From positions 1 through 31,665 of the forward strand of contig JAEYNP010000093.1 of assembly GCA_023412495.1 (NCBI GenBank): a DNA stretch of 31,665 nt, read 5' to 3'. Below are positions 6,650 to 23,119 of this stretch, in pieces. Source of the DNA: Pseudomonadota bacterium (GTDB lineage Bacteria > Desulfobacterota > Desulfobulbia > Desulfobulbales > Desulfocapsaceae). The notes below the pieces were generated by a model. The model searched no databases, had not been told where the DNA came from, and saw only the letters and a program-made list of their open reading frames with translations. The first letter of the stretch is position 1. Every line of letters starts with the position of its first letter. Position numbers and translations under genes: made by a program.

Positions 6650-6833
6650 ACAGTTGAAGATTGGTGAATCTGGAACGAAATCCGATTGAGCGCTTGATCG
6701 GCAGTGTTTCTTAGGCCGGACGCTTCGATTTTTTCTGGAGCAGATCTGCTCCGGAATTTTGCAAGCAATGGGAATTGCAAAAATCTTCTAAGGCCAAAAA
6801 ACCGGGCAACCGAATATTTCAGAGGAGGAGAAT

Positions 6834-8383: not shown

Positions 8384-8644
8384 ATGACCAAAGACGAAAT
8401 CGCAGAGAAAATTCTCACCATCCTCACCGAGGATTTCGAATTCGAGCGGCCGGGCCTTACCGACAACCTGCGGGACGTGCATGGGTTCGACAGTATCGAT
8501 GCCATTGAACTTCTGGGTAAAATCGAAAAATCCATCCTGGGCTTTTCGCTGACCCGCGAGGAGAAGGAAAAGGCCATGAGCATCCGGACCATCAACGATA
8601 TCGTGAGTTATATCGAAGAGATCAGACTCTCCCGCAGCAAGTGA
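8384..8644 (+). CDS. Acyl carrier protein 1
   Basis: An 86-residue ACP with the phosphopantetheine attachment Ser37 in GFDSIDAIEL and the expected four-helix, acidic composition. It would carry growing acyl chains for the ketosynthase encoded 12 bases downstream. The start at 8384 is picked over an in-frame ATG at 8324 because the extra residues would be a hydrophobic run atypical of ACPs. The ribosome site is poor. The upstream gap (8124-8383) has a small GC hairpin (CCGGC-TCC-GCCGG, 8239-8251), a GGATTCCGG direct repeat and a possible -10 (TAGTAT, 8294-8299), so a promoter there is plausible but unproven. Confidence 0.88.
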   Translation: MTKDEIAEKILTILTEDFEFERPGLTDNLRDVHGFDSIDAIELLGKIEKSILGFSLTREEKEKAMSIRTINDIVSYIEEIRLSRSK

Positions 8645-8656
8645 GCACCACCCGCC

Positions 8657-9901
8657 ATGAAACGTCGCGTCGTCATCACCGCCTGTTCCGCCATCACGCC
8701 CATCGGGTATGAAAAAAACGAGATCATCGACAGCCTCAAGGCAGGCAAATCCGGCGTTCGTCCCCTTCGCGACGACGGCCTTCTGACCAAGCACATCCAC
8801 TCCCGGGTGTTCGGCACCGTCGACTACCCGATCGAATATGCTTTTGCCCGCCAGTATCGCAAGACCATGGGGCCGGTGGCCTACTATGCCTGCCAGGTGG
8901 CAAAGGATGTGCTGGAACGATCCGGGCTCGCCAAGGATTTCATTTCCTCCGGCCGCCTCGGGGTGGCCTTCGGCTCGACCCATGGCAGCCCGACCGTCCA
9001 GCGGGAGATCTACCATACCTTCTTCAATGCCTTGGAAGAGAAGTTTTCCTCCATCGGCGCGGTGGATTACCTCCGCTCCATGGTCCACACCACCGCCGTG
9101 AACATCACCCGGATGTTCGGCATCACCGGACGGATCATCGCCTCGTCCACGGCCTGTACGACCTCCAGCCAGTCCATCGGCTACGGCTACGAGATGGTGA
9201 AATTCGGCATGCAGGACGCCATGCTCTGCGGCGGGGCTGACGAATACGACACTACCACGGTGGCGGTTTTCGACAACCTGCTGGCCTGTTCCGTTGGCTA
9301 TAACGACACTCCGCACCTCACGCCCCGGCCCTTCGACGCCGGCCGGGACGGCCTGGTTGTGGGGGAAGGCGGCGGCGCGGTCATGCTGGAGGAATACGAA
9401 TCGGCGAAACGCCGGGGAGCCGTCATCCTCGGCGAAATCCTTGGTTTTGCTTGCAACAACAACGGCGGCGACATGATCCTTCCCAATCTCGACGGGATCA
9501 CCGCGACCTTGAGGATCGCCCTCGCCGACGCCGGGCTCCAGCCTTCAGAGGTCGATTTCATCAGCGCCCACGCCACAGCCACCAAGATGGGCGATGTCAT
9601 CGAGGCCCAGGCCATCGGCGCCGTCTACGGCGATGGTCCGCACGTCACCGGCCTCAAGAGCTACATGGGCCACACCATGGGCACCTGCGGGGTAATCGAG
9701 ACGATCCTGACCCTCTACATGATGGAACAGGGCTTCATCGCCCCGACCTTGAATCTCGTCGATGTCGACGAGCGCTGCGGGATGCTGCGCCACACCCGCG
9801 AGCTGACCGAGAAGGAAGTCCGGATAGCCGCCATCCAGAATTTCGCCTTCGGCGGCGTGAACACCTGCCTGCTCATAAAAAACGGCAGGTTCGTGGACTG
9901 A
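8657..9901 (+). CDS. FabF-type ketosynthase 1
   Basis: A 414-residue beta-ketoacyl-ACP synthase with a complete triad: Cys167 in STACTTSS, His305 in SAHATATK, His339 in MGHTMG. The C-terminal GFGGxN-type ending (FAFGGVNTC) is also present. It should catalyse decarboxylative condensation of an acyl chain with malonyl-ACP. It sits between its own ACP and a lysophosphatidate-type acyltransferase with short gaps (12 and 5 bases), forming the first transcription unit of the cluster. It differs clearly in sequence from the two ketosynthases at 14700 and 15977, suggesting a separate role such as initiation or a different chain length. Confidence 0.93.
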   Translation: MKRRVVITACSAITPIGYEKNEIIDSLKAGKSGVRPLRDDGLLTKHIHSRVFGTVDYPIEYAFARQYRKTMGPVAYYACQVAKDVLERSGLAKDFISSGRLGVAFGSTHGSPTVQREIYHTFFNALEEKFSSIGAVDYLRSMVHTTAVNITRMFGITGRIIASSTACTTSSQSIGYGYEMVKFGMQDAMLCGGADEYDTTTVAVFDNLLACSVGYNDTPHLTPRPFDAGRDGLVVGEGGGAVMLEEYESAKRRGAVILGEILGFACNNNGGDMILPNLDGITATLRIALADAGLQPSEVDFISAHATATKMGDVIEAQAIGAVYGDGPHVTGLKSYMGHTMGTCGVIETILTLYMMEQGFIAPTLNLVDVDERCGMLRHTRELTEKEVRIAAIQNFAFGGVNTCLLIKNGRFVD

Positions 9902-9906
9902 TCTAA

Positions 9907-10692
9907 ATGTCTTCCTCAGAACAGTCGCAAAGCCTGCCCCGGCCGGCAAGGCTGCACGACCGGCTGCTCGACGCGGGCGCGACGCTCATCTGCTGGGCCT
10001 GGTTTCTTTTCGGCTTCATCATCTTTTTTTCCTGGCGCTACCTGATCTGCGCCCTCTTCCGAAAGAACCCGGAACTTCACTTCCAGGGGATGAACTGCCA
10101 GTTCTACCGGATCTTCTTCCGCATCGTCAGACTCACCGCCCCCCGACAGAAAATCGAGATCGACGAGCGGGTTGCGGCCATCAGGTCTTCGGTCATCGTC
10201 TGCAACCACCTCTCCTATCTCGACCCGCTGCTCCTGATCGCCCTCTTTCCCCGGCACAAGACCATCGTCAAGACCCGGTTCTTCTCCACACCGATCTTCG
10301 GCTGGATGATCACCAAGTCGGGTTACCTTCCCGCCACCAGCGAGGGGCGTTTCTCGGGGATGATGCTCGACCGGATGAACACCATGGAAGACTATCTCAA
10401 TTCAGGCGGCAACCTCTTCATTTTTCCCGAAGGAACGAGAAGCCGCGACGGCAGGCTCGGCAATCTCAACACCGGGGCCCTCAAGATCGCCCGAATGTGC
10501 AAGTCCCCGATCTATGTCCTGCAGCTCAAGAATACCGACAAGCTCTTCACCCCGGGCAGATTCTGGTTCAACACCCGGGTGCCCAACACCATCAGCGTGA
10601 AGATCATCGAGCGCATCGAACCGGACTACCGGCGCCAGTCTCCCGCCATCGCCGATCTGCTGCTTCAGGTGAGACAGGCTTATCTCGATTGA
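9907..10692 (+). CDS. PlsC-type lysophospholipid acyltransferase
   Basis: A 261-residue acyltransferase with a membrane segment at about 25-50, the catalytic NHLSYLD (His101, Asp106) and the phosphate-binding FPEGTRSR (173-180). In this family the acyl group from ACP or CoA is transferred to a glycerol-phosphate lipid. In aryl-polyene-type clusters such enzymes are thought to attach the product to a lipid, and the same role is plausible here. It follows the ketosynthase by 5 bases and is the last gene of the first unit; the next gene runs in the opposite direction. Confidence 0.88.
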   Translation: MSSSEQSQSLPRPARLHDRLLDAGATLICWAWFLFGFIIFFSWRYLICALFRKNPELHFQGMNCQFYRIFFRIVRLTAPRQKIEIDERVAAIRSSVIVCNHLSYLDPLLLIALFPRHKTIVKTRFFSTPIFGWMITKSGYLPATSEGRFSGMMLDRMNTMEDYLNSGGNLFIFPEGTRSRDGRLGNLNTGALKIARMCKSPIYVLQLKNTDKLFTPGRFWFNTRVPNTISVKIIERIEPDYRRQSPAIADLLLQVRQAYLD

Positions 10693-10775
10693 TACCCGGC
10701 TCCCTTACCTCGATTTCGACAGCGATCCCGCTTTCACTGACTATCCAAGATCCTCAAAGGGTTCGTATCCGATAC

Positions 10776-11486
10776 TCATTTATCGAATGAACCAGATTCT
10801 CTGGTTCCGGTTTCCACGTGCCCGTACACCGCAAACTGCAGCGGCGAGGCCGTGGCGACCTGAAGGGAGCGGGAGAGCCCTGCCCGCTCCAGCTGGACGG
10901 ATATCTCCGCCGGAGTGTACGCCGCGCGGAGCGAGAGGAGCATATCCTGGCGAAGCTTTAGAGGTGCGCCGGGGACATAGGTGTCGATCACCAGTTCGGC
11001 CGCCTCCTCGTCCGCCGGACGCACAAGATCCATGACCAGAACCGCCGCCCCCGGCAGTCCATACCGGCGGATCGCCTGCCACAGGTCCATCGGCTCAGCC
11101 AGATGATGCAGGAAACTGTTGGAGACGACGGCCTCGTAGCGGCTGCGTGGCAACACCAGATCATCCGGCAGGATTCCGTGAATCAGCCGGATACGCTTTT
11201 CCAGTCCTTCCTTCCGGACGGCTTCCACGCCGGCACTCAGCATGGCGGGCGAGCCATCCACTCCGTGAATCTCCCACTTCGGCAGGAGCCCGGCAAGGCG
11301 GAGAGGAATGACGGCCGGACCGCAACCCAGGTCGAGAATGGCCCCCTTCTCTGCCAGCCGCGGGAAGAATTTGCGGAAGCGCTGGATAAAGATCCAGTAA
11401 CCCTTATCCAGATGAGGGCCGGTGTAGGCCTCGACCTGGCGGGGGTCGTCCATGAGTTCCTCCGGTTCCGGAATTCGCTCCATCAT
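10776..11486 (-). CDS. Class I SAM-dependent methyltransferase
   Basis: A 236-residue methyltransferase with the SAM-binding motif I at 50-60 (ILDLGCGPA), an acidic motif II (HGVDGSPAML) and a later SNSFLHHL motif typical of small-molecule O- or C-methyltransferases. It is encoded against the cluster direction, convergent with the acyltransferase, and could methylate the cluster product or be unrelated. It has a start at 11486; a ribosome site upstream (GGGAGTCAGGAAG) is plausible. GC content and codon choice look like those of its neighbours. Confidence 0.85.
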   Translation of the reverse strand: MMERIPEPEELMDDPRQVEAYTGPHLDKGYWIFIQRFRKFFPRLAEKGAILDLGCGPAVIPLRLAGLLPKWEIHGVDGSPAMLSAGVEAVRKEGLEKRIRLIHGILPDDLVLPRSRYEAVVSNSFLHHLAEPMDLWQAIRRYGLPGAAVLVMDLVRPADEEAAELVIDTYVPGAPLKLRQDMLLSLRAAYTPAEISVQLERAGLSRSLQVATASPLQFAVYGHVETGTRESGSFDK

Positions 11487-12012
11487 TTTTCTTCCTGACT
11501 CCCCACGCGGGGTATGAGTAGCTTGGCTGGTTTTTTACAGTATCAACAAGAAATAATCTGTAAGAAGGTATTAAGATCTTCGAATCAGAGCTTCCGTCTC
11601 AGTTCGTATATCCCTCTTCCTTACACGAGACTCTCAAGTCGGACCTGGCCTCATTCTCGCCAGGTTTACCAACAACAGCTGGAAAGACAAGATTTCTTTC
11701 GAAATCCGGGATCTGTGGCAGCAGGCTGGGCAATTGGAATATACTTTTGAGAAAGGCCGGAAAGGGTGATAGAATTATCAGAACTATCGGCAAAAAATGA
11801 TCGCATGTCAACACATTGCGTGACCATACGGCAGTTTCCCCGGAAAAGATACTTTCTGTGACGGCTTACCTGTTGTATATTTGCAGCCCGAATGGTATAC
11901 GTTTGCACCCAAGATTGCGTGATCCCTCTGCCAACCCAAGGAGAACTCGCCTGATTTTTTTGTTTGCTGTGCCATGATACTTTAGGGTATTTATTTGCTC
12001 TGTGCATTAAGA
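11487..12012. other. Gene-free interval, candidate promoter region of the second operon
   Basis: About 520 bases, visibly more AT-rich than the flanking genes, with no convincing protein on either strand; short frames here lack family motifs. It contains an imperfect dyad GATAG-N11-CTATC (11768-11788) that also holds GATA-N4-TATC. A possible promoter lies near 11960-11993 (TTGTTT/TTTGCT, then TATTTA). It is the only sizeable break before eleven tightly spaced plus-strand genes, so the transcription start of the long operon is expected here. This is inference from position. Confidence 0.35.
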
Positions 12013-12345
12013 ATGGAAGTAATGAAGATTACCGCATCCGTAACAGCTGACAGCAACTCTTCCTGGTTCTCCGGCCATTTCCCGAACAATCCGATCCTGC
12101 CTGGAATTGCCCAGTTAAAAATGGTTGCCGATCTTATCAAGAAACCCGAACGGGGCAACTTGTCCTTGACGGGCCTGAGCCGGGTGAAATTCAGAAAACT
12201 CGTCAAACCCGGCGACCGGCTCGACATCGAGGTCGAATGCTGTGCCGGTGAAGACCACTTTATGTTCAAGATTACCAGCGGGAACGATGATGTCTGTTCC
12301 GGCAAGATGCTTTTTACCCACAACGAAAGACAGCAGAATCCATGA
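12013..12345 (+). CDS. Hotdog-fold ApeI/FabZ-like dehydratase homologue
   Basis: A 110-residue single hotdog protein with the diagnostic GHFPNNPILPG (His22 in GHF). In FabZ the catalytic glutamate sits about ten residues beyond the PG; here the corresponding position appears to be Lys in AQLKMVAD. It resembles the dehydratases of aryl-polyene clusters (ApeI-like) more than housekeeping FabZ, an impression from the short length and this segment. Expected role: removal of water from 3-hydroxyacyl-ACP to leave a double bond. The stop overlaps the next ACP start by four bases (ATGA). Starts at 12013 or 12022 are both possible; neither has a strong ribosome site. Confidence 0.78.
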   Translation: MEVMKITASVTADSNSSWFSGHFPNNPILPGIAQLKMVADLIKKPERGNLSLTGLSRVKFRKLVKPGDRLDIEVECCAGEDHFMFKITSGNDDVCSGKMLFTHNERQQNP

Positions 12346-12608
12346 GTAACGATATCAACCAGACCATCACTCGGATCTCAGAAATCATCATCAACGAACT
12401 GAAGCTTGAAGATGTGACCCCCGAAACCTTCAATCCGGACCTCGACCTGGTCGACGAGGTTGGAGTCGACTCCATGGACCTGGCCACCGTGGCCCTGGTG
12501 CTGCGGGACGAGTACGGCATCCGTATCGACGAAGACGATTATCCCAAGCTGACCACGGTCCGCATCATCGCCCAGTACATCCTCGACAAACTGAACAGCC
12601 AGGAATAG
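12342..12608 (+). CDS. Acyl carrier protein 2
   Basis: An 88-residue ACP with Ser44 in GVDSMDLATV as the phosphopantetheine site. It begins within the stop of the dehydratase gene (ATGA overlap) and ends directly before the first radical SAM gene, so a physical or kinetic link between this carrier and both enzymes is likely. A tight overlap of this kind suggests equal expression. It is distinct in sequence from ACP 1 and ACP 3. Confidence 0.9.
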   Translation: MSNDINQTITRISEIIINELKLEDVTPETFNPDLDLVDEVGVDSMDLATVALVLRDEYGIRIDEDDYPKLTTVRIIAQYILDKLNSQE

Positions 12609-13697
12609 ATGTCCGCCCCACAGCCATATAAAGCTGAGTCGAGCAGCTTGCCTGCTCAGTACAAGTTCTCGGATATCATCGCCGACCCGCGGATCAGGGA
12701 GCGCTGGGAAAAGGTTCGCCGCTGGTTCTTCCTGCGCGAATCGACCTACGACATGAGCAATCGCTGCAATATCCGCTGCGAGGGCTGTTATTACTTCAAC
12801 GGCGAGAAGCAGTTCGCGGCGGAACAGGGCGACGAAGAGGCCTGGCGGGCGCTCATGCGGGGCGAGAAGCAACGCGGCATAACCTTCGCCGTCCTGGCCG
12901 GGGCCGAACCGTCATTGGTGCCAAACCTGTGCAGGATCTGCCACGAGATCGTTCCCCACGGGGCCATCGCCACCAACGGGCTCAAGACCATCCCGCGGGA
13001 CATCGACTACCGGATCCACATTTCGGTCTGGGGCAACGATACGACCAGCCGCAAGATCCGCAAGGCGGGGGACATGCTGATCCGGCAGATGGCCAACTAC
13101 CAGGACGACCCCCGGGCGGTATTCGTCTACACCTTCACCCCCGAAAATATCGACGAGGCGCGGGAGGTGACCGAGATCCTCGCCGCGGGCGGGCAGCAGA
13201 TCACCTTCAACATGTTTTCCGCTCCGGTGGGCTACAGCGGCCATTTGAAGCATTCGCCCGAGTCGCTCGCGAAAACCCGGGCGATGATGGCCGAGCTCCT
13301 GGTCGAGTATCCCGCGACCGTGCTCTTTTCCCACTACAACATCGTCGCCCACACGGACCGGCTGGCCCTGCACGATCTCTTCTCCTGCTCCTATCCGCGG
13401 ATGAACCCCTCGACCGATATCGGCCTCGGCCGATCGTTCCGGCAGTACCGGACGGATCTGCAGTGGGACCGGGAGGCCGCCTGCTGCGTGCCGGACACCG
13501 ACTGCGGCGACTGCCGCCATTACGCCGCGGGCAGCGCCGTGGTCACCGCCCGGATGTACCGCCATGCGACGGATCCGGTCACCTTTTCCGCCTGGCTCGA
13601 CTACGTGGACACCTATCTTGCCGTCTGGGTCCGGGGCTACGAAAAGGGCTCCAACCTCTGCCATACCTTTGTCAGTCCGCCACCAACCAATGCGTAG
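12609..13697 (+). CDS. Radical SAM enzyme A with C-terminal cysteine cluster
   Basis: A 362-residue radical SAM protein. The SAM-cluster motif CNIRCEGC gives Cys53, Cys57 and Cys60. The usual GGEP motif is altered to AGAEP (97-101). A second set of cysteines, Cys260, Cys292, Cys293, Cys299 and Cys302, near the C-terminus suggests an auxiliary Fe-S cluster of SPASM/twitch type, but the spacing is not a textbook match. It would use a 5'-deoxyadenosyl radical to abstract hydrogen from a substrate, probably an acyl-ACP given the adjacent ACP gene. It starts immediately after the ACP stop and is a paralogue of the next gene. Confidence 0.88.
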   Translation: MSAPQPYKAESSSLPAQYKFSDIIADPRIRERWEKVRRWFFLRESTYDMSNRCNIRCEGCYYFNGEKQFAAEQGDEEAWRALMRGEKQRGITFAVLAGAEPSLVPNLCRICHEIVPHGAIATNGLKTIPRDIDYRIHISVWGNDTTSRKIRKAGDMLIRQMANYQDDPRAVFVYTFTPENIDEAREVTEILAAGGQQITFNMFSAPVGYSGHLKHSPESLAKTRAMMAELLVEYPATVLFSHYNIVAHTDRLALHDLFSCSYPRMNPSTDIGLGRSFRQYRTDLQWDREAACCVPDTDCGDCRHYAAGSAVVTARMYRHATDPVTFSAWLDYVDTYLAVWVRGYEKGSNLCHTFVSPPPTNA

Positions 13698-13700
13698 AAT

Positions 13701-14699
13701 ATGATAACCGTCAGTTCCCTTCTCGATGAACGCTGGTACGAGCGTTACAAGACCATCAGCAAGCTCAATATCCGCAGCTCCATCTATGACGTGACCAACC
13801 GCTGCAACCTGCGGTGCAAGGGCTGTTTCTTCTTCTCCTCCGGCGAGCACAAGGTGGCGGACGAGGAGACCGACATCGACAAATGGCATGCCTTCATCGA
13901 CCGCGAAAAGCAACGCGGGGTGAACCTGGCGATCCTCATCGGCGGCGAACCGACCCTCTGTCTTGACCGAGTCGAGGCCTTCTACCGGAAATTGCCAACC
14001 TTCTGCGCCACCAACGGCCTGATCAAGGTGCCCCGGGACCGCTTCCCGGATCTGATGGTCGGGATCTCCATGTGGGGCGATGCCGAGGACGAGAAGATCC
14101 TGCGGGGCAAGGACACCTTCGCCATCTCGAGCGCCAATTACGCCGGCGACCCCAACGCCTATTACCTCTACACCATCACCCCCAAGCAGCTGGGCAAGAC
14201 CGAGAGCAACATCAGGAAAATCCGCGACGTGGGCCTGAAAGTCCACATGCAGCTGCTCTCCAACGACGAGGGCGTCGACGGCTTCTCCTGGAAACCCGAA
14301 GAGCTGGTGGCGGTGCGCGAGGAGATGGATGCCATGCTCGATGCCTATCCGGATACGGTCATCTCCTCCAAGTACTACCACGAGATCATCACCACCGGCA
14401 AAATGATGGGCCGGTCCTTCGGCTGGATGGAATGCCCCTCGGTCACCGAACCCATCGACAACCGCAACCCCAAGCCCAAGCGGCTGATCGGCTTCATCCG
14501 CTGGTCCTCGCAGCTTGCCGCCATGCACCGCTGCTGCACCTCGGAGACCCGCGACTGCTCCACCTGCAAGGACGGCGCCGCCCACATGAGCTGGGTCATG
14601 GTCAACAAACGGGCGCACATCAAGACCGCCAGGGACCTCCAGAACTGGATCGAGGTCTACGAGATGTTCGCCAAGCTGTACCGCTTCATCCCCTGGTGA
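13701..14699 (+). CDS. Radical SAM enzyme B, paralogue of A
   Basis: A 332-residue radical SAM protein with CNLRCKGC (Cys35, Cys39, Cys42) and a standard LIGGEPTL motif. The same late cysteine pattern as enzyme A is seen at Cys245, Cys278, Cys279, Cys286 and Cys289. The two share the opening YDxxNRCNxRCxGC(Y/F)(Y/F) and the helix-rich middle (EKQRG, CATNGL or IATNGL, ISxWG). Paired radical SAM enzymes next to FabF-type ketosynthases are the theme of the proposed ladderane loci of anammox bacteria, but sequence alone does not show what they do here. The gap to enzyme A is three bases, and the next start directly follows the stop. Confidence 0.88.
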   Translation: MITVSSLLDERWYERYKTISKLNIRSSIYDVTNRCNLRCKGCFFFSSGEHKVADEETDIDKWHAFIDREKQRGVNLAILIGGEPTLCLDRVEAFYRKLPTFCATNGLIKVPRDRFPDLMVGISMWGDAEDEKILRGKDTFAISSANYAGDPNAYYLYTITPKQLGKTESNIRKIRDVGLKVHMQLLSNDEGVDGFSWKPEELVAVREEMDAMLDAYPDTVISSKYYHEIITTGKMMGRSFGWMECPSVTEPIDNRNPKPKRLIGFIRWSSQLAAMHRCCTSETRDCSTCKDGAAHMSWVMVNKRAHIKTARDLQNWIEVYEMFAKLYRFIPW

Positions 14700-15965
14700 G
14701 TGAGTAAAAAAGAAATGGGCCCGAAGGATGCGGTTATTGTCGGCTACGACGCTATTTCCCCTTTGGGGCTGGAGCTCGAGGACCAGTGGCGGAAGGCCCT
14801 GGACGGCAAAAGCGGCGTAGGTCCTCTCACCCGCTTTTCCCTGCCGCCGAACTTTCCCGTGCGGGTCGCCGCTCAGGTCCCCGACATCGACCACTTGAAT
14901 TACCCCTTCCTCTCGGCCCGCCATCAGGCGGCCTGGACTTCGCCCCTTTTCAAATACTCGCTGCTTTCGGTGGCCCGGGCCCTTTCGCGCAGCCGGATTG
15001 AACTTTCCTCCGATATCGCCGCCCGCACCGCGGTCACCTACAGTTCGGCGATCGGCGGGCTGGATGCGGTGCTGGCCGCCGACCGGAGGCTATCGGCCGA
15101 GAACAAACTGCCCCATCCCTACACCAACCCCAATTCCTGCATCAATATGGTCGGAGGCAAGATCGCCATCGAAACCGGGGCGAAGGGGCCGATCGTTGCC
15201 ACCATCACCGCCTGCGCCACGGGCCTCACCTCGATGCTGGTCGCCTCGATGTTCTTCACCCAGGGACGGGCCGACGTAGCCATCTGCGGGGCGGTCGACT
15301 TCGCCCTGGTCGAGCCGATCGTCGCCGGCTTCCACACCATGAACGGAGTCTATCACCCGAAGGACGGCAAGGACGTGGACCCAGCCGAAAAGGCCAGCCG
15401 GCCGTTTTCGGCGGACCGCCGGGGTTTCGTCATCGCCGAGGGGGCGGGCGCCGTGATCCTTGCTACCCGCGAATTCGCCGTGGCCCACGGTCTCCGTTAT
15501 AGTGCGGAACTGGCCGGCTGGGGCATGACGTCGGACGCCCACCACTTCGTCGCCCCCCATTTCGAGACCGTCAAGAAATGCATGGCGGATGCCCTGGCCG
15601 ACGCCGGACTGCAGCCGCAGGATATCTCCGCGGTCAACGCCCATGCCGCCTCGACCAAGGTCGGCGACAAGATCGAATACGATGCGCTCCGGGCTATCTT
15701 CGGCGGGAAGATCCCGCCGGTCTCGGCCAACAAGTCGCTCTTCGGCCACGCCATGGGGGCGTCGAGCGTGCTGGAAACCATCTTCGCCCTCAAGGGCATG
15801 GAGGAGAGTGGCCTGCCGCCCACCATCAACTACCGGCCCGATCCGGAGATCGAGATCGACTGCGTGGCCGAGGGGAGTCGTCCGCTCGCCCAGGAATTCG
15901 TGCTCAAGAACTCCTTCGGCTTCGGCGGCTGCAACGCCTGCGCCGTCCTGAAAAAATCAGCATAA
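14700..15965 (+). CDS. FabF-type ketosynthase 2
   Basis: A 421-residue ketosynthase with Cys172 in ITACATGLTS, His315 in NAHAASTK and His350 in LFGHAMGA, so all three catalytic residues are present. It ends in the usual FGFGGCNAC. The start shown is GTG at 14700, directly after the previous stop; an ATG at 14715 is an alternative that removes five residues. It is encoded next to a second complete ketosynthase. In type II polyene systems one of an adjacent pair is often a chain-length factor lacking the cysteine; that is not the case here. Confidence 0.92.
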   Translation: MSKKEMGPKDAVIVGYDAISPLGLELEDQWRKALDGKSGVGPLTRFSLPPNFPVRVAAQVPDIDHLNYPFLSARHQAAWTSPLFKYSLLSVARALSRSRIELSSDIAARTAVTYSSAIGGLDAVLAADRRLSAENKLPHPYTNPNSCINMVGGKIAIETGAKGPIVATITACATGLTSMLVASMFFTQGRADVAICGAVDFALVEPIVAGFHTMNGVYHPKDGKDVDPAEKASRPFSADRRGFVIAEGAGAVILATREFAVAHGLRYSAELAGWGMTSDAHHFVAPHFETVKKCMADALADAGLQPQDISAVNAHAASTKVGDKIEYDALRAIFGGKIPPVSANKSLFGHAMGASSVLETIFALKGMEESGLPPTINYRPDPEIEIDCVAEGSRPLAQEFVLKNSFGFGGCNACAVLKKSA

Positions 15966-15976
15966 TTGAAGGAAGT

Positions 15977-17242
15977 ATGAAGGCACCGAAAAACAGAAGG
16001 GTCTTTGTGGTCGGCTATGACGCGGCAACCGCCCTCGGCAGTACCTTTGCCGCGACCTGGGAGGCCGCGGCGGCGGGCCGGGCGGGCTTTCGCCGGCTGA
16101 CCCGCTGCGAGAGCACCAGCCGCAGCAACGTGGTGGGCGAGATCCCGGACTGGGACCCGAACCAGCTCCCCTACGTCGACCGCAAGGAGGCCTCCCTGTG
16201 GAACGCGTCTTACGTCTTTCTGACCATGGAGGTCTGCCGCCGGGCGCTCGAGAACGCGGGACTGGAAATGAGCGGCGAGACCGGACCAAGAATGGGCTGC
16301 CTCATCGGTTCGGCCCTGAACGGCACCGACTCCTACCGGATCGCCATGGACAACTATGTCAACCACGGCCCGCTCAAGGTCAGCCCTTACCTCCTGCCCA
16401 ATGTCTGCGCCAACCTGCCGGCTGGCAAGGCGGGGATGCTGATGGGCTTCACCGGCCCGATCTTCTCGCCCCAGGGTGCCTGCGCCTCGGGCAACCACGC
16501 CATCGGCATCGGCGCCCGGATGATCCGCGACGGAGACTGCGATTTCGTCCTGGCCGGCGGCGTCGAGACCTGTCTGGTACCGGAGATCATCCAGGGCTTC
16601 TCCAACATGCTCGCCACCATCAAGGTCGGCCCCAAGGACCGGGCGGCGGAAGACCCGACCCAGGCCTCGCGGCCCTTCAGCCTCGACCGCAAGGGCTTCG
16701 TGCTGGCCGAGGGGGCTGGGGTGCTCGTGCTCGCCGCCGAAGACGCGGTCCGGGCCCATGGCCTGACGCCGAAGGCCGAGATCTCAGGAATCGGCTGGAA
16801 TTCCGATGCCCATCATTTCACCCGGCCCAATGCCGGGACCATTATCCGGGCCATCCGAGACGCCATCGACGACGCGGAGATATCGCCCGCCGATATCGGC
16901 GCGATCAACGCCCACGGCACCTCCACCCCCACCGGCGACCGCACCGAGGTCGACTGCCTGCGGACGGTGTTCGGTACTGGCATATCCGCCATTCCGATCT
17001 CGGCCAACAAGTCCCAGGTCGGCCATTCGCTCGGGGCATCCGCCGCCATCGAGGCGGCGCTGGCCATCGAGGCCATGGGGAGGGGACTCGTTCTGCCGAC
17101 GGTCAACCACATTCCCGACCCGGAATTCGGCGACCTCGATGTGGTTCCCAACACCTGCCGCAAGCACCCCCACGAGTTCGTCCTCTCCAACTCCTTCGGC
17201 TTCGGCGGCACCAACTGCTGCATCGTCTTCCGGGGGGTGTGA
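15977..17242 (+). CDS. FabF-type ketosynthase 3
   Basis: A 421-residue ketosynthase with Cys169 in PQGACASGN, His313 in NAHGTST and His350 in VGHSLGA. The GACASG context differs from the TACATG of ketosynthase 2. The start at 15977 has GAAGGAAG just upstream. The open frame extends back to 15578 through the previous gene, but those residues are an arginine-rich shadow and are not included. Together with its neighbour at 14700 it may form a heterodimer, as in aryl-polyene and type II polyketide systems; this is an inference from adjacency. Confidence 0.92.
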   Translation: MKAPKNRRVFVVGYDAATALGSTFAATWEAAAAGRAGFRRLTRCESTSRSNVVGEIPDWDPNQLPYVDRKEASLWNASYVFLTMEVCRRALENAGLEMSGETGPRMGCLIGSALNGTDSYRIAMDNYVNHGPLKVSPYLLPNVCANLPAGKAGMLMGFTGPIFSPQGACASGNHAIGIGARMIRDGDCDFVLAGGVETCLVPEIIQGFSNMLATIKVGPKDRAAEDPTQASRPFSLDRKGFVLAEGAGVLVLAAEDAVRAHGLTPKAEISGIGWNSDAHHFTRPNAGTIIRAIRDAIDDAEISPADIGAINAHGTSTPTGDRTEVDCLRTVFGTGISAIPISANKSQVGHSLGASAAIEAALAIEAMGRGLVLPTVNHIPDPEFGDLDVVPNTCRKHPHEFVLSNSFGFGGTNCCIVFRGV

Positions 17243-17257
17243 GGAAAATAAAACAAG

Positions 17258-17734
17258 ATGCGACCGCGACCCCTCATCCCGGAAATTCTGGACCGTCCCT
17301 GCTACGTACGCGACGTCAACAGCGGCAAGATCTGGCACCGCTGCGAACTGCGCACCCTCTACGTCGACACCGACCGCTCACAGGTAGTCTATCACGCCAA
17401 CTATTTGAAATATTTTGAATTCGGCCGGGCATCACTGATGCGGGACGCCAATTACCCCTACAAGAAGATCGAAGAGAGCGGCTATATCTACCCGATCATC
17501 AAGACCGAGCTCAACTATTACTCGCCGCTCTTTTACGACGATCTGATGTACATCTACACCCAGCCCGGAAAAATGGAGCTGGTCAAGCTTCAGTTCGATT
17601 ACTGCATCACCCGCGCCGACACCGGCGAGATCTGCTGCACCGGCTTTACCAAGCATTGCGCGGTGAACGGCAAGCACGTCCCGGTCGAGATCGACGAGAA
17701 GACCATCAACCTCTGGAACGAGTTTCCGCGTTGA
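17258..17734 (+). CDS. 4HBT/YbgC-type acyl thioesterase
   Basis: A 158-residue hotdog thioesterase. The family motif is clear: YVDTDRSQVVYHANYLKYFEFGR, split here as VDTDRSQVVYHANY followed by LKYFEFGR, with the catalytic Asp in DTD and the VYHANY helix. It would hydrolyse an acyl-CoA or acyl-ACP, either releasing the product or editing stalled chains. The C-terminal half contains unusual paired cysteines (ICCTGF). GAGGAAAA lies before the ATG. The stop and next start share a base (TGATG), indicating coupled translation. Confidence 0.87.
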   Translation: MRPRPLIPEILDRPCYVRDVNSGKIWHRCELRTLYVDTDRSQVVYHANYLKYFEFGRASLMRDANYPYKKIEESGYIYPIIKTELNYYSPLFYDDLMYIYTQPGKMELVKLQFDYCITRADTGEICCTGFTKHCAVNGKHVPVEIDEKTINLWNEFPR

Positions 17735-18546
17735 TGAGCGCCGGCCGTCTGCCCTGCAAGGTCCGCGTCCAGCACTGGCTGAAGGATCATTGTGTAGGGG
17801 AGAGAATCGTGCTGCCCGCGGTCGAGACTCTGCTGTTTCTGGCCGAGCAGTGTGCGGCGAACCACCCCGAGGCGGACATCCGAGTAATGGAAGAGGCTCG
17901 ATTCGGCAAATTCCTGGAGGTTCCGCCGGCGGTCCCGGACCTTCCCGTCCTGGTGGAAGAGGAGGTCTGCGGCGACGGGCGAATCCGCATGAAGCTCGCG
18001 AGCCTTGTCCGGTTCAAGGCCGCCTCGAGGATCAAGGAACATGGGGATGTTACTTTTTCCGCCGGAAGTTTTCCGGGTGACATTCCTGTTGTCGATCCGG
18101 CCCCGCCGGGGAAACCCGCCGCCGAAGTCGATGCCCAATACCTGTATCGTCACCTCGTGCCTTTCGGCTCGAATTACCATACCCTGCAGGACACGCTCTT
18201 GCTCACGGAACGCGGGGCATGGGGGAGGATCGAGGCCCCTGCGCTGCCTTTCAGTTACGCAGTCCAGGAGCAGCTCGGCTCGCCCTTCCCGCTGGACGGG
18301 GCCATGCATGCCGCCTGCGTCCTGGGTCAGCGGCTGGTGGATTTCGTCCCCTTTCCGGTTGGCTTTGCCAGACGCATCGTCAACCGGCCTACCCAGCCGG
18401 GCAAAAGCTACCTGACTCGGGCGACGCTTATCTGCAAAACCCGGGACGAGCTGATGTTCGATCTGGAAATTTTTAGCCATCAAGGCGAGGTATTCGAGAC
18501 TGTCGAGACCCTCCGCATGCGGGATGTGGGGGCCTTCAAGAAGTAA
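17734..18546 (+). CDS. Polyketide-type double-hotdog dehydratase homologue
   Basis: A 270-residue protein resembling a stand-alone polyketide synthase dehydratase domain. The N-terminal hotdog has KDHCVGERIVLPAVETLL, where His19 occupies the usual catalytic position and LPA replaces the usual VPG. The C-terminal hotdog has FPLDGAMHAACVLGQ, where Asp188 matches the usual catalytic Asp. If active, it dehydrates beta-hydroxyacyl-ACP. A discrete enzyme of this type beside single-hotdog dehydratase 12013 suggests two separate dehydration steps or chain positions. The overlap with the preceding gene is one base. The reading frame continues upstream to 17656 in shadow, which is excluded. Confidence 0.72.
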   Translation: MSAGRLPCKVRVQHWLKDHCVGERIVLPAVETLLFLAEQCAANHPEADIRVMEEARFGKFLEVPPAVPDLPVLVEEEVCGDGRIRMKLASLVRFKAASRIKEHGDVTFSAGSFPGDIPVVDPAPPGKPAAEVDAQYLYRHLVPFGSNYHTLQDTLLLTERGAWGRIEAPALPFSYAVQEQLGSPFPLDGAMHAACVLGQRLVDFVPFPVGFARRIVNRPTQPGKSYLTRATLICKTRDELMFDLEIFSHQGEVFETVETLRMRDVGAFKK

Positions 18547-18557
18547 GGAAGAGAGCA

Positions 18558-18833
18558 ATGGAACCGTTGGAAAGAGAATTACTGGCACTTATCTGCACCA
18601 CCTGCAACCTGACCGAGGTGGATCAATCCCGGGTCGGCCGGCACGATCCCCTGATCGGCCCCGACTCCCCCTTGGGCACCGACTCCCTCGACGCCCTGGA
18701 GATCGCCGTGACCGTGCAGCAGAAATACGGGGTGAGGATGGATTCGGAGAATACCAGCCGGGTCGTGCTGCAGTCGCTCGCGACGCTTGCCGAATATATC
18801 ACCAGCAACCGGGCAGTCAGCCTTGCTGCTTGA
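18558..18833 (+). CDS. Acyl carrier protein 3
   Basis: A 91-residue ACP with Ser43 in GTDSLDALEI. It is the third carrier of the cluster and sits directly before the ammonia-lyase gene, so it may carry the aryl starter unit; this is only a positional argument. Two cysteines in LICTTCN near the N-terminus are unusual for an ACP. A GGAAGAGAG ribosome site precedes the start. Confidence 0.88.
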   Translation: MEPLERELLALICTTCNLTEVDQSRVGRHDPLIGPDSPLGTDSLDALEIAVTVQQKYGVRMDSENTSRVVLQSLATLAEYITSNRAVSLAA

Positions 18834-18943
18834 CATGAGTGGCAGCCCAACACCCTAAGAATTGGTCATTATTTCCAGTTCTTCAATTCAAAAGGAGTCT
18901 CCGGATTTGTTGTTTATCACAGACTTTCAGGAGTAAGGCACTA

Positions 18944-20542
18944 ATGAACATGAGTACACCTCCTTTGATCCACCTCTCCGGCAGCGACCTCACCGTGAGA
19001 GATATCGTCGCCATCGGCCGCGGCCGGAAAAAGGTCGCCCTCGACTCGGATGCCATCGCCCGCTGCCGGGCCTCGCGCGCCTTCCTGGAGCAGGCGGTGC
19101 GGGACAAAAAGATCATCTATGGGGTCAACACCTCCTGCGGCCCGATGTGCAACAAGATCATCAACGACCGGGATATCGAGACGCTGCAGCAAAACCTCAT
19201 CGTCAGCCATGCTGCTGGCCTGGGCGAGCCGCTTAGGCCTGTCATCGCCCGGGCGGTCATGGCCGTCCGCCTCAATACGCTCGCCAAGGGCTTTTCAGGG
19301 GTGCGGATCGAGCTCCTCGAACTCATGCGGGACATGATCAACGCCGGCATCGCCCCCTACATCCCGGAATGCGGCAGCGTCGGGGCCTCGGGGGACCTCA
19401 TCCACCTCGCCCACATGTCGCTCGCGGTTATCGGCCGGGGCAAGGTGTATCTCGACAGTGAACTGCTGGAGGCGCAAGACGCCCTGGAACGCTGCGGTCT
19501 TTCGCCCTTGACCCTGAGCTTCAAGGAGGGCCTGGCGCTTGTGAACGGCACGGCGGCGATGACGGCGATCGCCGCCTTCGCTCTTGACGGCGCGGAGAAG
19601 CTCTTCAATGTGGCCTGCGTCAATGCCGCCTTTGCCGTGGAGATCTTCGGCGGGATCGACGACGCCTTCGATGCCGACCTGCACGCGGTCAAGCCCCACC
19701 CGGGCCAGGTCCGGGTGGCCCGGCTCATCCGAAAGCTCTACAAGGGCACCGGCAATGTCACCCGCCGTGAAGACTTGCATGCGCGGATTCGGGGCGAAAA
19801 CCAGGTCGATATCCCGGTGTATGAAACCAGCGTCAACGTCCAGGACGTCTACTCCCTGCGCTGCACACCGCAGATCCTCGCCCCCGTACGGGAGTCCCTC
19901 GACTTTGCCATCGCCACCGTCGAGACCGAGGCCAACTCCTCCAATGACAACCCTATCATCATTCCGGACAGGAACAAGATCATCCACGGCGGCAACTTCC
20001 ACGGCCAGAGCATCAGCTTCGCCATGGACATGCTCTGCATCGCCATCGCCACCCTCTGCAACCTCTCGGAGCGGCGACTGAACAAGCTGCTCGACCGCAA
20101 TCTCAACGAAGGCCTGCCCGAGCATCTCATTCCCGGACAGGTCGGACTCACCATGGGCTTCATGGGCGCCCAGTACCTGGCCACCTCCACCACCGCGGAA
20201 AACCGTAACCTGGCCTCGCCTATGAGCGTCAACTCGATCTCCTGCAACGCCTCCAACCAGGACGTTGTCAGCATGGGGACGGTGGCGGCGAGAAAGGCCT
20301 GCCGGCTGGTGGGCAACGCCAAGCACGTCGTCACGCTGGAGACCCTGGCAGACCTCCAGGCCCTGTCGTTCAGGAATAGTGACAAACTCGGCCGCGCCAC
20401 CGGCAAAATCCATGCAATCCTCCAGAGGGATTTCCGGGTCTACGACGACTCGCGGATCTTCCATGAAGACTTGACTGCCTTCCGGCGGCTGCTCTTCGCC
20501 GGTCCGCTCTTCGAGGATCTGTCCGTCTATTTCACCGATTAA
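18944..20542 (+). CDS. MIO-dependent aromatic amino acid/histidine ammonia-lyase
   Basis: A 532-residue ammonia-lyase. Ala148-Ser149-Gly150 in SVGASGD form the MIO cofactor by self-cyclisation. Tyr59 (IYGVNTS) and Tyr303 with the SLRC motif complete the active site. The selectivity pair corresponding to His89-Leu90 of Rhodobacter tyrosine lyase is Ser88-His89, typical of histidine lyases, as is FHGQ at 352-355. Yet the late motif is NQDVVSMG (438-445), as in phenylalanine/tyrosine lyases, not the histidine-lyase NQEDHVSM. In an aryl-lipid cluster the likely job is making coumarate or cinnamate from tyrosine or phenylalanine. No urocanase or other histidine-degradation gene is present. The start at 18944 follows AGGAG; an upstream GTG at 18839 is excluded. 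Confidence 0.87.
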   Translation: MNMSTPPLIHLSGSDLTVRDIVAIGRGRKKVALDSDAIARCRASRAFLEQAVRDKKIIYGVNTSCGPMCNKIINDRDIETLQQNLIVSHAAGLGEPLRPVIARAVMAVRLNTLAKGFSGVRIELLELMRDMINAGIAPYIPECGSVGASGDLIHLAHMSLAVIGRGKVYLDSELLEAQDALERCGLSPLTLSFKEGLALVNGTAAMTAIAAFALDGAEKLFNVACVNAAFAVEIFGGIDDAFDADLHAVKPHPGQVRVARLIRKLYKGTGNVTRREDLHARIRGENQVDIPVYETSVNVQDVYSLRCTPQILAPVRESLDFAIATVETEANSSNDNPIIIPDRNKIIHGGNFHGQSISFAMDMLCIAIATLCNLSERRLNKLLDRNLNEGLPEHLIPGQVGLTMGFMGAQYLATSTTAENRNLASPMSVNSISCNASNQDVVSMGTVAARKACRLVGNAKHVVTLETLADLQALSFRNSDKLGRATGKIHAILQRDFRVYDDSRIFHEDLTAFRRLLFAGPLFEDLSVYFTD

Positions 20543-20552
20543 TCAGAATTTC

Positions 20553-21947
20553 ATGGCCGCAGTATCCTCGCAAGCTTCTATTTCCCCGGCATCTTCCTCG
20601 GTTCGCCCGGCCCGCTGCCTGCTCGTCTCCGCCAACCGCATGGCCTCACCCTACCCGGTGTATCCCATCGGCATCGCCTATATCATGGGGGCCTTGCAGC
20701 GCCACGGCCACCGGGTAGACCACGTCGACATCCTGGCCTCGGGCGGCTACCAGGTTCTGGAAGAGCGGCTGCGGCAGAACATTTACGACCTCGTCGGGGT
20801 CTCGATCAGAAACATCGACAATGTCGACAGCACGGCACCCCAGGAACTGCTCGCCGACATCGCCGAGGCGGTGCGCCGGATCCGCACACATTCGCAAGCC
20901 CCGCTGGTGCTTGGCGGTCCGGGTTTTTCCATCATGCCCGAGCGGCTTCTCGACCACCTGGGGGCCGACTACGGCATCGTCGGCGAGGGCGAGGAAGCCC
21001 TGCCGCAGCTGTTGAACCGGCTGATGGCCGGGGAATGCCCGGAGCGGAAGATCCTCTCCCGGAGTCTCACCGGCTTTCCCGACTGTTCGCCGCTCTATTC
21101 CCCGGAAGTGACCCCCTACTATATCGGCCGCGGCGGCATGCTGAACGTGCAGACCAAGCGCGGCTGCCGGCACGGCTGCAGCTACTGCTCGTATCCGAGC
21201 ATCGAGGGGCGGACGATGCGCTACCGCGATCCTGCCACCATCGTCCGGGAGATCGAGGAGCTCCGCGCCGAATTCGGGGCCCGCTATATCTTCTTCACCG
21301 ACGGGGTGTTCAACGACCCTGACGACCGTTATCTCGAAATCGCCGAGGAGCTGGTCCGGGCCGGGAACAAGGTGCCCTGGTGCGCCTTTTTTCGTCCGCA
21401 GCACCTGTCCCGCGAGGCGCTCCGACTGCTCAAGCGGAGCGGCATGGCCGGCATGGAGCTGGGCACAGACTCCACCTCGGACGAGACGCTTGCCGCCCTG
21501 CACAAGGGCTTCACATTTGCCGAGGTGATCGCCGTCAACGAGTCCATCGTGGCAGAGGAGATCCCCTGCGCCCACTTTGTCATGTTCGGCGGTCCCGGAG
21601 AAACGGCTGAGACTGTGGAAAAAGGCCTGAAAAATCTCGAGCAACTGAACAGGACCGTGGTTTTCGTCTATCTCGGCATCCGCATCCTGCCCGGCACCAG
21701 GCTCTACGAACGAGCCCTTTTGGAACAGGTGATCACGGCTGAAACCGACCTCATCCGCCCGGTCTTCTATTATTCGCCCCTGGTCGACCGGGAATTGGTC
21801 GACAGCCGGCTGCGCCTGGCCTTTCACGGCAGGCAGGACCGGCTCTTCCCCGTGACGGAGCGCGAGCATTTGATCCCGGTATTGCACCGGAGGGGGTATG
21901 ACGGCCCGTTATGGAACCTGCTGATCAATACCTCCTCGCCACAATGA
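20553..21947 (+). CDS. B12-binding radical SAM protein, lipid-cluster type
   Basis: A 464-residue enzyme with an N-terminal cobalamin-binding-like Rossmann domain (20-165; PIGIAYIMGAL near the start, GGPGFSIMP, GEGEEALPQL). A radical SAM barrel follows with CRHGCSYC giving Cys205, Cys209 and Cys212. A C-terminal helical domain ends with YDGPLWNLL. Members of this broad class perform methylations at unactivated carbons, rearrangements or ring closures. I recall database names linking close homologues to lipid biosynthesis, consistent with the ketosynthase context. It begins 10 bases after the ammonia-lyase stop, and the glycosyltransferase start overlaps its stop (ATGA). Confidence 0.88.
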   Translation: MAAVSSQASISPASSSVRPARCLLVSANRMASPYPVYPIGIAYIMGALQRHGHRVDHVDILASGGYQVLEERLRQNIYDLVGVSIRNIDNVDSTAPQELLADIAEAVRRIRTHSQAPLVLGGPGFSIMPERLLDHLGADYGIVGEGEEALPQLLNRLMAGECPERKILSRSLTGFPDCSPLYSPEVTPYYIGRGGMLNVQTKRGCRHGCSYCSYPSIEGRTMRYRDPATIVREIEELRAEFGARYIFFTDGVFNDPDDRYLEIAEELVRAGNKVPWCAFFRPQHLSREALRLLKRSGMAGMELGTDSTSDETLAALHKGFTFAEVIAVNESIVAEEIPCAHFVMFGGPGETAETVEKGLKNLEQLNRTVVFVYLGIRILPGTRLYERALLEQVITAETDLIRPVFYYSPLVDRELVDSRLRLAFHGRQDRLFPVTEREHLIPVLHRRGYDGPLWNLLINTSSPQ

Positions 21948-23119
21948 CCTCGGATTCTCCCGTCTTCCTGGTCATCGTCACCCGCAATCACGCTTCGAGC
22001 CTGCCCGCCGTTGTCCAATCTGCCCTGGCCGCAGGATACGAATTGCTGGTGATCGACGACGGCAGCGACGACGACAGTCTTGGGACGATCGCCGGCCTGC
22101 CCTGCCGGACCATGCGCTTTGCCGCTGCGAGGGGACACCGTTCCGCCGTGTTGGAAGGAGCGGCCCTGGCGGCGCAACTCGGGTTTGAATCCATGGTCAC
22201 GATGGCCGGCGACGGCCGGCACGATCCATTGGATATCCGGCTGCTGGTTGAGGAGGCGAAAAGACAGGATGGTGCCTGTCTGGTTGTGGGCAGCCCCAGC
22301 GACTCAGAAAACTCGTCGGCCGGGCGGAACTTTCATATTGCGGATGCCCATTTCTGGATCCGGCTGGAATGCGGCCTGGAGATTCCCGACCCCACCTCCG
22401 TTTTTCGCCTCTATCCCGTCAAAGAATTACTGGCCCTGAAATTCAGCCTCGGCAGCGGCAACTTTGCCACCGAATCGATCGTGAGGTTCGCCTGGTCGGG
22501 ACTGCCGGTCGTTGCGGTTCCCGTTGCGGTCGGGCCGCCGGCGGAACGGGAACAATGTCTGGCCGAAAGGATGAAGCAAAAGCTGTCACTGATTTCACTG
22601 CACTGCCGGCTGGTGGCGAGGAGACTGCTGCCCCTGCCCCATCAGCGCTTCGTCCCCGAGGACTCGCTACACCGAAAGGTCGTCGACACCATTTCGCAAA
22701 ACCCCTTCCGGGTCCTCGGCCGGATCTGCCGGGAACACACCTCGCCGCTCTGGCTGGCCCTGGCCGTCTGGCTCGGCATCTTCATGGGCGCACTGCCGCT
22801 CTTTTCGATCCACACCATCGCCATCATCTACGTGGCCCACCGGCTGCATGTCAACAAGGTTGCAGCCGTCGCCGCCAGCCAGTTCTGCATGCCGCCCGTG
22901 GTCCCGGTTCTCTGCATCCAGGTCGGCTACTATCTCAGAAAGGGCGAGTTGCTCCTCGATTTTTCGTGGCAGAGGTGGCTGCTCGAGATCCACGAACGAT
23001 TTTGGGAATGGCTTATCGGCTCGCTGCTGCTCGGCCCCCTGCTCGGTCTCATCGGCGCCGGCATCATCTATTGGATGGCCGTCCGGCTACAGAGGAAATC
23101 CCTCTCGTCGGCCGGGTAA
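21944..23119 (+). CDS. GT2 glycosyltransferase fused to DUF2062 membrane domain
   Basis: A 391-residue protein. Residues 1-225 form a family 2 glycosyltransferase with LLVIDDGSDDDS (Asp38, Asp39) and a metal-binding-type MAGDGRHDP. Residues 240-390 form a DUF2062-type domain with several membrane segments (WLALAVWLGIFMGALPLF, SQFCMPPVVPV, LIGSLLLGPLLGL). The ATG at 21944 lies within the previous stop (ATGA overlap), so translation is coupled. The likely role is transfer of a sugar to a lipid product at the inner membrane. The substrate is unknown. It is the last gene of the long operon, with no good T-rich terminator seen directly after it. Confidence 0.82.
   Translation: MTSDSPVFLVIVTRNHASSLPAVVQSALAAGYELLVIDDGSDDDSLGTIAGLPCRTMRFAAARGHRSAVLEGAALAAQLGFESMVTMAGDGRHDPLDIRLLVEEAKRQDGACLVVGSPSDSENSSAGRNFHIADAHFWIRLECGLEIPDPTSVFRLYPVKELLALKFSLGSGNFATESIVRFAWSGLPVVAVPVAVGPPAEREQCLAERMKQKLSLISLHCRLVARRLLPLPHQRFVPEDSLHRKVVDTISQNPFRVLGRICREHTSPLWLALAVWLGIFMGALPLFSIHTIAIIYVAHRLHVNKVAAVAASQFCMPPVVPVLCIQVGYYLRKGELLLDFSWQRWLLEIHERFWEWLIGSLLLGPLLGLIGAGIIYWMAVRLQRKSLSSAG

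Follow-up and report, generated by a model that had tools for sequence, protein, structure and literature searches.

Three kinds of described gene cluster come closest to the locus considered here. Aryl polyene (APE) clusters, such as APEEc of Escherichia coli and APEXd of Xenorhabdus, combine several acyl carrier proteins (ACPs) and ketosynthases (KSs) with an ApeI-like dehydratase, a thioesterase, an acyltransferase, a glycosyltransferase and a methyltransferase, and the flexirubin cluster of Chitinophaga pinensis (flxA-flxY) obtains its starter through a 4-methylideneimidazole-5-one (MIO) ammonia-lyase. The third kind, the ladderane-candidate clusters of anammox bacteria (Kuste3335-3352 type), holds a B12-binding radical S-adenosylmethionine (SAM) enzyme of family TIGR04072 together with KS and ACP/FabZ/FabG-like genes. 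We compared with these a 31,665-nucleotide stretch of DNA (the window; contig JAEYNP010000093.1 of assembly GCA_023412495.1) from a bacterium placed in the Desulfocapsaceae. Its central gene cluster is an APE-like lipid cluster whose new element is an uncharacterised pair of radical SAM enzymes, rSAM1 and rSAM2. By gene content and order, it consists of two modules, A (eight genes, from a FabZ-like dehydratase to the dehydratase DH2) and B (ACP3, ammonia-lyase, B12 radical SAM enzyme and a GT2-DUF2062 fusion). We think it rather probable that this sulfate reducer of Desulfobulbales type encodes here part of a type II lipid pathway resembling those for aryl polyenes and flexirubins, in which the paired radical SAM enzymes modify the carrier-bound chain and to which an aromatic starter module has been added.

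The eight-gene cassette and its partner genes

Module A has the order ApeI/FabZ-like dehydratase, ACP2, rSAM1, rSAM2, KS2, KS3, 4HBT thioesterase and DH2. Relatives were gathered by scanning genome contigs with rSAM2, and the best 80 of the 222 found were kept as loci (L numbers; genomes have G numbers). Gene calls were length-greedy and sometimes wrong in GC-rich loci (e.g., L034), so synteny is based on tblastn positions across the fetched loci. All eight genes are present in 51 loci and follow the same order in every one, an agreement beyond chance; in the remaining 29 one or more cassette genes are missing, and many of these loci are cut by contig ends. By record title, the 80 relatives belong mostly to Desulfo- genera, families or 'Deltaproteobacteria', a minority being titled 'Proteobacteria' or 'bacterium' only and one (L065, genome G159) Planctomycetota. 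The stretch from the FabZ-like gene to DH2 is thus a conserved unit across sulfate-reducing Desulfobacterota. Two loci stand apart: L065 carries a cassette with an rSAM2 82% identical to that of the window, possibly through horizontal transfer or a wrongly binned contig, and L066 (8 kb) is the sole locus with rSAM2 and no other recognised cassette gene.

The rSAM2 proteins are 80-90% identical over the best 80 loci, which were themselves picked by rSAM2. Within the 47 well-covered loci, mean identity is highest for rSAM2 (84%) and lowest for DH2 (43%), and pairwise comparison of the eight genes' distance matrices gives correlations of r 0.62-0.90, which shared descent alone could explain. The three ketosynthases of the window (KS1, KS2 and KS3) all keep the cysteine and both histidine motifs, as the initial annotation had said in calling them triad-complete. 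Its reading of DH2 as a double-hotdog dehydratase also stands: the protein is below the Pfam PS-DH cut-off (21.6 vs 23.7), but its model (22 sequences, pLDDT 94.0) resembles the dehydratase domains of type I polyketide synthases (PKSs; Foldseek 1.9e-14 with 7zmf_B, TM about 0.75), and three residues, His20, Asp189 and His193 (counted from 17731), do not vary among the 22 aligned sequences.

On the evidence of co-occurrence, the steady partner of module A is a protein encoded outside the window, a fused KS and chain-length factor (CLF). In Desulfobacterota these ketosynthase and CLF-like (Ketoacyl-synt_2) domains form one protein of about 725 aa (L013:4558-6732, L134:7758-9923), in which the ketosynthase cysteine motif occurs once, in the N-terminal half. 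Co-occurrence was scored over 146 genomes from the order of Desulforhopalus sp. IMCC35007 (G006), which we take to be Desulfobulbales, with thresholds of 1e-60 for rSAM2 and 1e-120 for KS-CLF. Each of the two was found in 46 genomes, both in 45 and neither in 99, the exceptions being G025 (rSAM2 alone) and G092 (KS-CLF alone); the Fisher p of 2e-35 overstates independence because the species share descent. In the 45 shared genomes the two genes are less than 8 kb apart in 28, 8-25 kb in six and 320 kb in one, and are on different contigs in ten, some of which probably reflect assembly breaks. The 320-kb case and the ten different-contig cases mean that the co-occurrence cannot be put down entirely to close linkage. 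Of the genomes with a window-type locus, four (G001, G002, G007 and G082) encode a full-length KS-CLF and G003 a fragment of it. Here it sits in a second sub-cluster, which in G082 (14.6 kb) and G002 (about 26 kb) shares the contig of the cassette and lies upstream; this sub-cluster also holds FabG in G001, G002 and G082 and a weak MMPL-like gene (26-27%) in G001 and G082.

Many of the cassettes also have a canonical set of neighbours. Among the 53 loci with at least 4 kb upstream of FabZ, 28 have ACP, the KS/CLF fusion and a B12 radical SAM gene directly there, five have nothing recognised and 20 have other sets. Downstream of DH2 (43 loci with at least 3 kb), a GT25-like gene plus an MMPL-methyltransferase fusion is found in 22 and the MMPL fusion alone in four; three have ACP3, lyase and B12 radical SAM gene, ten nothing recognised and four other sets. 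Over all 80 loci, the genes around the cassette include FabG (32), GT25-like (29), MMPL-methyltransferase (28) and deacetylase (25) genes, as well as ApeP-like genes; the FabG homologue and the further B12-type radical SAM gene (28 of 80) are as a rule divergent and upstream. In Desulfofustis glycolicus this upstream enzyme scores 361 bits against TIGR04072 (cut-off 360). The exporter with a C-terminal methyltransferase domain can be seen at L004:16047-19088, L013:15598-18690 and L015:16163-19282.

These genes fit the parts lists of the E. coli APE and flexirubin clusters as given in excerpts of PMC8253772 and PMC3992019. The window itself shares with APE clusters its multiple ACPs and KSs, an ApeI-type dehydratase and a thioesterase (both over their family cut-offs, Table 1), and acyltransferase, glycosyltransferase and methyltransferase genes; its relatives add KS-CLF, FabG, ApeP and the MMPL exporter. 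It differs in that no KS/CLF pair of the ApeO/ApeC kind was found, all three KSs keeping Cys-His-His, and that neither a ketoreductase (ApeQ) nor an RND/MMPL exporter was seen in the window's called frames, scanned with Pfam and NCBIfam, or by tblastn. Further differences are the fusion of KS and CLF in the relatives, and the twin radical SAM pair and free-standing type I PKS-like dehydratase, of which the excerpts of PMC8253772 make no mention. With the flexirubin cluster the locus shares the logic of a starter made by a MIO ammonia-lyase, and the relatives share the deacetylase, acyltransferase, glycosyltransferase and exporter types; in G119 and G536 the lyase has a FlxY-like ligase close by. 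Unlike that cluster, the window has a lyase below the FlxA cut-off, no ligase that we could find, and radical SAM enzymes, which are unmentioned in the excerpts of PMC3992019.

The ammonia-lyase module

ACP3, the lyase and the B12 radical SAM enzyme, in some cases with GT2, form a second module that is attached in a small subgroup only; in other genomes the lyase lies apart, mostly accompanied by the B12 enzyme and GT2. The initial annotation had taken the whole locus for one aryl-primed pathway, which as a general property must be given up, since the lyase is separable from the cassette: it lies near the cassette in three of the 80 loci (many are cut by contig ends), and in the order of G006 it occurs in four of the 146 genomes, three of them with rSAM2, and is absent from 43 of the 46 rSAM2-bearing genomes. 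The lyase clade is present in four of the 20 genomes behind chosen loci (G001, G002, G003 and G007), and the lyase in two of 146 genomes from the order of Desulfatitalea alkaliphila (G010). The genome behind L002 has it after the cassette, though on a separate contig.

This distribution bears on whether the locus is a juxtaposition of two independent pathways. In that case the twin-radical-SAM/KS cassette would lead to a non-aromatic lipid, and the lyase, B12 radical SAM enzyme and GT2 would serve an aryl-polyene pathway of their own, placed beside it by chance or co-regulation. Besides the 43 cassette genomes that lack the lyase, Desulfopila inferna (G076) speaks for such an arrangement: its lyase, B12 radical SAM enzyme and GT2 belong to a complete APE-like cluster that lies about 30 kb away from the cassette (KS, phytoene desaturase-like, KS, ACP, acyltransferase, lyase, PagL, B12 radical SAM, GT2, acyltransferase, ACP, FabG, ApeP). 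A similar cluster in G119 includes a FlxY-like ligase (417 bits against a cut-off of 520), and rSAM2 has no match in that genome; the stretches around the lyase in G135 and G536 are without cassette genes. However, the order cassette-ACP3-lyase-B12 radical SAM, with the lyase closely behind DH2 and ACP3, recurs in five other genomes (L001, L003, L010, G082 and G007, the last split over two contigs), and the stretches beside fused loci showed no recognisable counterpart of the lyase-linked KS and desaturase genes of D. inferna. In a tree of ten lyases, in which L093 has a long branch, a single branch (support 90/91) separates the six fused-type enzymes from the others, so that the module was attached in one subgroup, consistent with a single event. 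We regard two separate pathways as rather unlikely.

The MIO ammonia-lyase named in the initial annotation is well supported (Table 1), and its ASG (MIO) motif is present, but its substrate is less easily assigned. Its best NCBIfam scores are to HutH (517 against a cut-off of 524 for PRK09367, 501/539 for hutH), a tyrosine aminomutase is the closest of the solved chains (4.7e-98) and has SH and NQD in common with it, and the flexirubin paper (PMC3992019) states that the substrate is not predictable from sequence. It might thus be a histidine ammonia-lyase or an aminomutase, and the starter not cinnamate or coumarate. Against this, the QED of HutH is replaced by NQD in the lyase and five close relatives, and genome G002 encodes a separate, housekeeping HutH-like enzyme (L095) that has QED; relatives are near a FlxY-like ligase in G119 and G536; and the tyrosine aminomutase score is itself under the cut-off (453/501). 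QED, NQD and SH are motif residues with a role in these lyases. The alignment left out L096, L097 and L099, the last having no usable frame. With the hutH score under its cut-off and NQD in place of QED, a HutH assignment is disfavoured, and we hold a histidine ammonia-lyase or aminomutase to be improbable here; tyrosine- or phenylalanine-type chemistry is most likely.

For the lipid pathway that we favour, the genes suggest the following course. The KS/CLF, with a ketoreductase and ApeP encoded elsewhere, would build a polyenoyl chain on ACP, to be extended or dehydrated by KS2/KS3, the ApeI-like FabZ and the PKS-type DH2. The radical SAM enzymes rSAM1 and rSAM2, encoded directly behind ACP2, would jointly act on the ACP-bound chain, which the 4HBT enzyme would release and PlsC and GT2-DUF2062 would attach to a membrane lipid and decorate. 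In the window subgroup, the lyase would supply a starter of the cinnamate or coumarate type, and C-methylation of the head group or the chain may fall to the TIGR04072 enzyme; the nearest solved relative of this enzyme is a B12 radical SAM tryptophan 2-C-methyltransferase (6wte, 2e-29).

Several points weigh against this pathway. In the window, which extends only 8.4 kb upstream of ACP1, neither a frame scan nor whole-window tblastn with the relatives' genes gave a chain-length factor, ketoreductase, aryl-CoA ligase or exporter, and none of the five window-type genomes has a FlxY-like ligase (at 1e-50) or the MMPL-methyltransferase (at 1e-60). The lyase is under the cut-off of every NCBIfam family listed for it, including the FlxA tyrosine ammonia-lyase (NF053541, 458/700), and its tie to the cassette in the 146-genome sample, three of its four genomes, is weak (Fisher p 0.09). 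Nor is every window-type locus complete: L003 and L093 lack a recognised GT2, L010 and G082 a recognised methyltransferase, and the L001 stretch a recognised ACP1-KS1-PlsC set. Finally, we know of no product for any relative.

Twin radical SAM enzymes and the ladderane comparison

The initial annotation had described rSAM1 and rSAM2 as paralogues, in agreement with their 30% identity and with the CX3CX2C motif and C-terminal CC..C..C pattern that both contain. Both have the CX3CX2C and barrel of the radical SAM superfamily, but rSAM2 is marginally below the Pfam Radical_SAM cut-off (29.4 vs 29.5), and rSAM1 matches no Pfam family and has weak matches to radical SAM families of NCBIfam. A model of rSAM2 (pLDDT 74.6) resembles many radical SAM enzymes, none of which stands out among those listed, and reading a function from the fold was rejected.

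A lead comes from distant relatives. At 1e-20, rSAM2 has relatives in five of 343 Planctomycetota genomes, one of them G159; the other four (L140, L141, L142 and L143) are 31-36% identical. In all four, the rSAM2 relative is the gene directly after LipS1/LipS2-like genes, and in three a GcvH-like protein, DsrE and HdrABC are near, while in L141 matches to DsrE and, weakly, to GcvH lie further off. The LipS names rest on L143 (LipS1, 234 bits with a cut-off of 230; LipS2, 201 bits, under its cut-off of 270), to whose genes those of the other three loci are 69-72% identical. LipS1 and LipS2 insert two sulfur atoms during lipoate assembly on octanoylated proteins and, in sHdr clusters, are a radical SAM pair that acts on an acyl chain bound to a carrier protein (PMC10332631, in part), as the twin enzymes may be. 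They differ in that rSAM1 and rSAM2 match neither LipS family, neither being listed for them by NCBIfam at 1e-3. The LipS, GcvH-like, DsrE and Hdr genes of L143 had no match in the cassette loci at 1e-10. Since the rSAM2 family adjoins a carrier protein in both settings, the analogy suggests that it acts on a carrier-bound acyl chain. More tentatively, rSAM1/rSAM2 may be a new LipS1/LipS2-like two-component radical SAM system for ACP-bound polyenoyl chains, installing sulfur, a carbon-carbon ring or another radical modification; the product might then be a structurally new class of membrane lipid in a large share of sulfate-reducing Desulfobacterota, aryl-primed in the version of the window subgroup.

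If the radical modification were cyclisation of a polyene into cyclobutanes, the locus would be of ladderane type. Its B12 radical SAM enzyme exceeds the TIGR04072 (rSAM_ladder_B12) cut-off and is 33-35% identical to the enzymes of anammox-type clusters (35% over about 97% for one); published synteny between Kuenenia and Desulfotalea clusters (PMC2649909, in part) points the same way. Of the 343 Planctomycetota genomes, 20 have a match above the TIGR04072 cut-off. Three of the ten Planctomycetota regions read (L120, L122 and L127) match Kuste3335-3352 in gene content, by which alone they were assigned (PMC2649909, in part), and the cluster with the 35% match also holds KSs, a CoA ligase, MMPL, a phytoene-desaturase-like protein and GT2.

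The twin enzymes nevertheless fit this type of cluster poorly. The second radical SAM enzyme of the anammox-type clusters is a different one, resembling rSAM2 in the core only (58 residues, 36 bits, for L122; about a quarter of the length, 37-38 bits, for L120 and L127), and none of the Planctomycetota genomes with an rSAM2 relative at 1e-20 is among the carriers of the anammox-type clusters read (G247, G327 and G417). A phytoene-desaturase-like oxidoreductase, present there, was not found in the window, either as a PF01593 protein in the scanned frames or as a tblastn match to that of D. inferna. In L122, the three KS motifs are all absent from one KS-like protein and one of them from another, whereas Cys-His-His is intact in all three KSs of the window. 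Moreover, Desulfotalea psychrophila, with clusters like those of Kuenenia, showed no ladderanes (PMC2649909, in part). We therefore rejected a ladderane filing, the resemblance of the twin enzymes being confined to the core although the B12 enzyme still belongs to TIGR04072, and we consider a ladderane-type locus highly improbable. The earlier view that the locus matches neither standard cluster is borne out: aryl-polyene-type parts are mixed with a TIGR04072 B12 radical SAM enzyme.

Layout of the window and meaning for sulfate reducers

The features are collected in Table 1. The remaining parts of the original inventory are confirmed there, with PF00550 over its cut-off in all three ACPs, the PlsC motifs in place, the single-hotdog dehydratase and 4HBT thioesterase above their cut-offs, and both domains of the GT2-DUF2062 fusion recognised. 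Searches used KS3 as 15995-17239 and the lyase as 18941-20539; the checked ATG starts are a few codons away.

Table 1. Genes of the cluster, with positions in the window and supporting matches.
Feature	Position	Strand	Evidence
ACP1	8384..8644	+	PF00550 27 bits; DSID motif; orthologue in 6/80 loci
Ketosynthase KS1, Cys-His-His intact	8657..9901	+	PF00109/PF02801; 80-86% identity, 6/80 loci
PlsC-type acyltransferase	9907..10692	+	PF01553 75.8 bits; NHLSYLD (NHX4D) and FPEGT
Class I SAM methyltransferase, convergent	10776..11486	-	PF13649 47.9 bits; orthologue in 7/80 loci
ApeI/FabZ-like single-hotdog dehydratase, cassette gene 1	12013..12345	+	PF07977; PF22818 32.6 bits, cut-off 28.5
ACP2	12342..12608	+	PF00550 37.7 bits; DSMD; median 82% identity, 73/80 loci
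rSAM1, radical SAM	12609..13697	+	CNIRCEGC, CCVPDTDCGDC; 78/80 loci
rSAM2, radical SAM, most conserved gene of the cassette	13701..14699	+	
Ketosynthase KS2, Cys-His-His intact, GTG start	14700..15965	+	72/80 loci
Ketosynthase KS3, FabF-like, Cys-His-His intact	15977..17242	+	ATG start 15977; 63/80 loci
4HBT (YbgC/FadM-type) thioesterase	17258..17734	+	TIGR00051 80.8 bits, cut-off 68.7
DH2, free-standing double-hotdog, type I PKS-like dehydratase, last gene of the cassette	17731..18546	+	TTG 17731 or ATG 17734
ACP3, lyase module	18558..18833	+	PF00550 25.6 bits; DSLD
MIO aromatic amino-acid ammonia-lyase, TAL/PAL/aminomutase type	18944..20542	+	ATG 18944; PF00221 564 bits
B12-binding radical SAM protein, TIGR04072 (rSAM_ladder_B12)	20553..21947	+	616.6 bits, cut-off 360
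GT2-DUF2062 fusion	21944..23119	+	PF00535 and PF09835 over cut-off

The genes had been described as mostly overlapping or nearly touching, which is true of 12013 to 23119, where the gaps between neighbours are -4 to about +110 bp. The description overlooked the minus-strand methyltransferase. Together with the 526-bp gap behind it, this gene leaves ACP1-KS1-PlsC on one side and a run of twelve genes on the other, so that there are at least two forward transcription units. Scans of the window gave three promoter-like sites (4.1 expected) and 16 terminator-like sites (13.4 expected), no signal in either case, and no tRNA was found in it. A 670-aa open reading frame lies on the minus strand at 12912-14924, opposite rSAM1, rSAM2 and KS2. 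Just upstream of ACP1 (5178-7613) are genes for an alpha/beta hydrolase, a cupin-like protein and an enoyl-CoA hydratase, none with a match in the 80 loci. Directly downstream of the cluster are two tandem CitMHS transporters (23653-25083 and 25770-27200), which we take to be NhaD-like; they are 92% identical and probably the result of a recent duplication.

We found no description of the twin-radical-SAM cassette in the open-licence literature, and no mention there of 'TIGR04072' or of radical SAM, ketosynthase, sulfate-reducing and polyene together. Clusters called 'ladderane' by antiSMASH have been reported in Desulfobacterota with their function left open (PMC9902471, in part). Named carriers include Desulfofustis glycolicus DSM 9705, with the cassette and no lyase match, and Desulfopila inferna, with both, so that a ladderane, aryl polyene or other product in sulfate reducers is directly testable. 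If the favoured reading is true, 46 of 146 genomes, about a third of those sampled from one order, would share an undescribed lipid pathway, and its most conserved enzyme would be an uncharacterised radical SAM protein.

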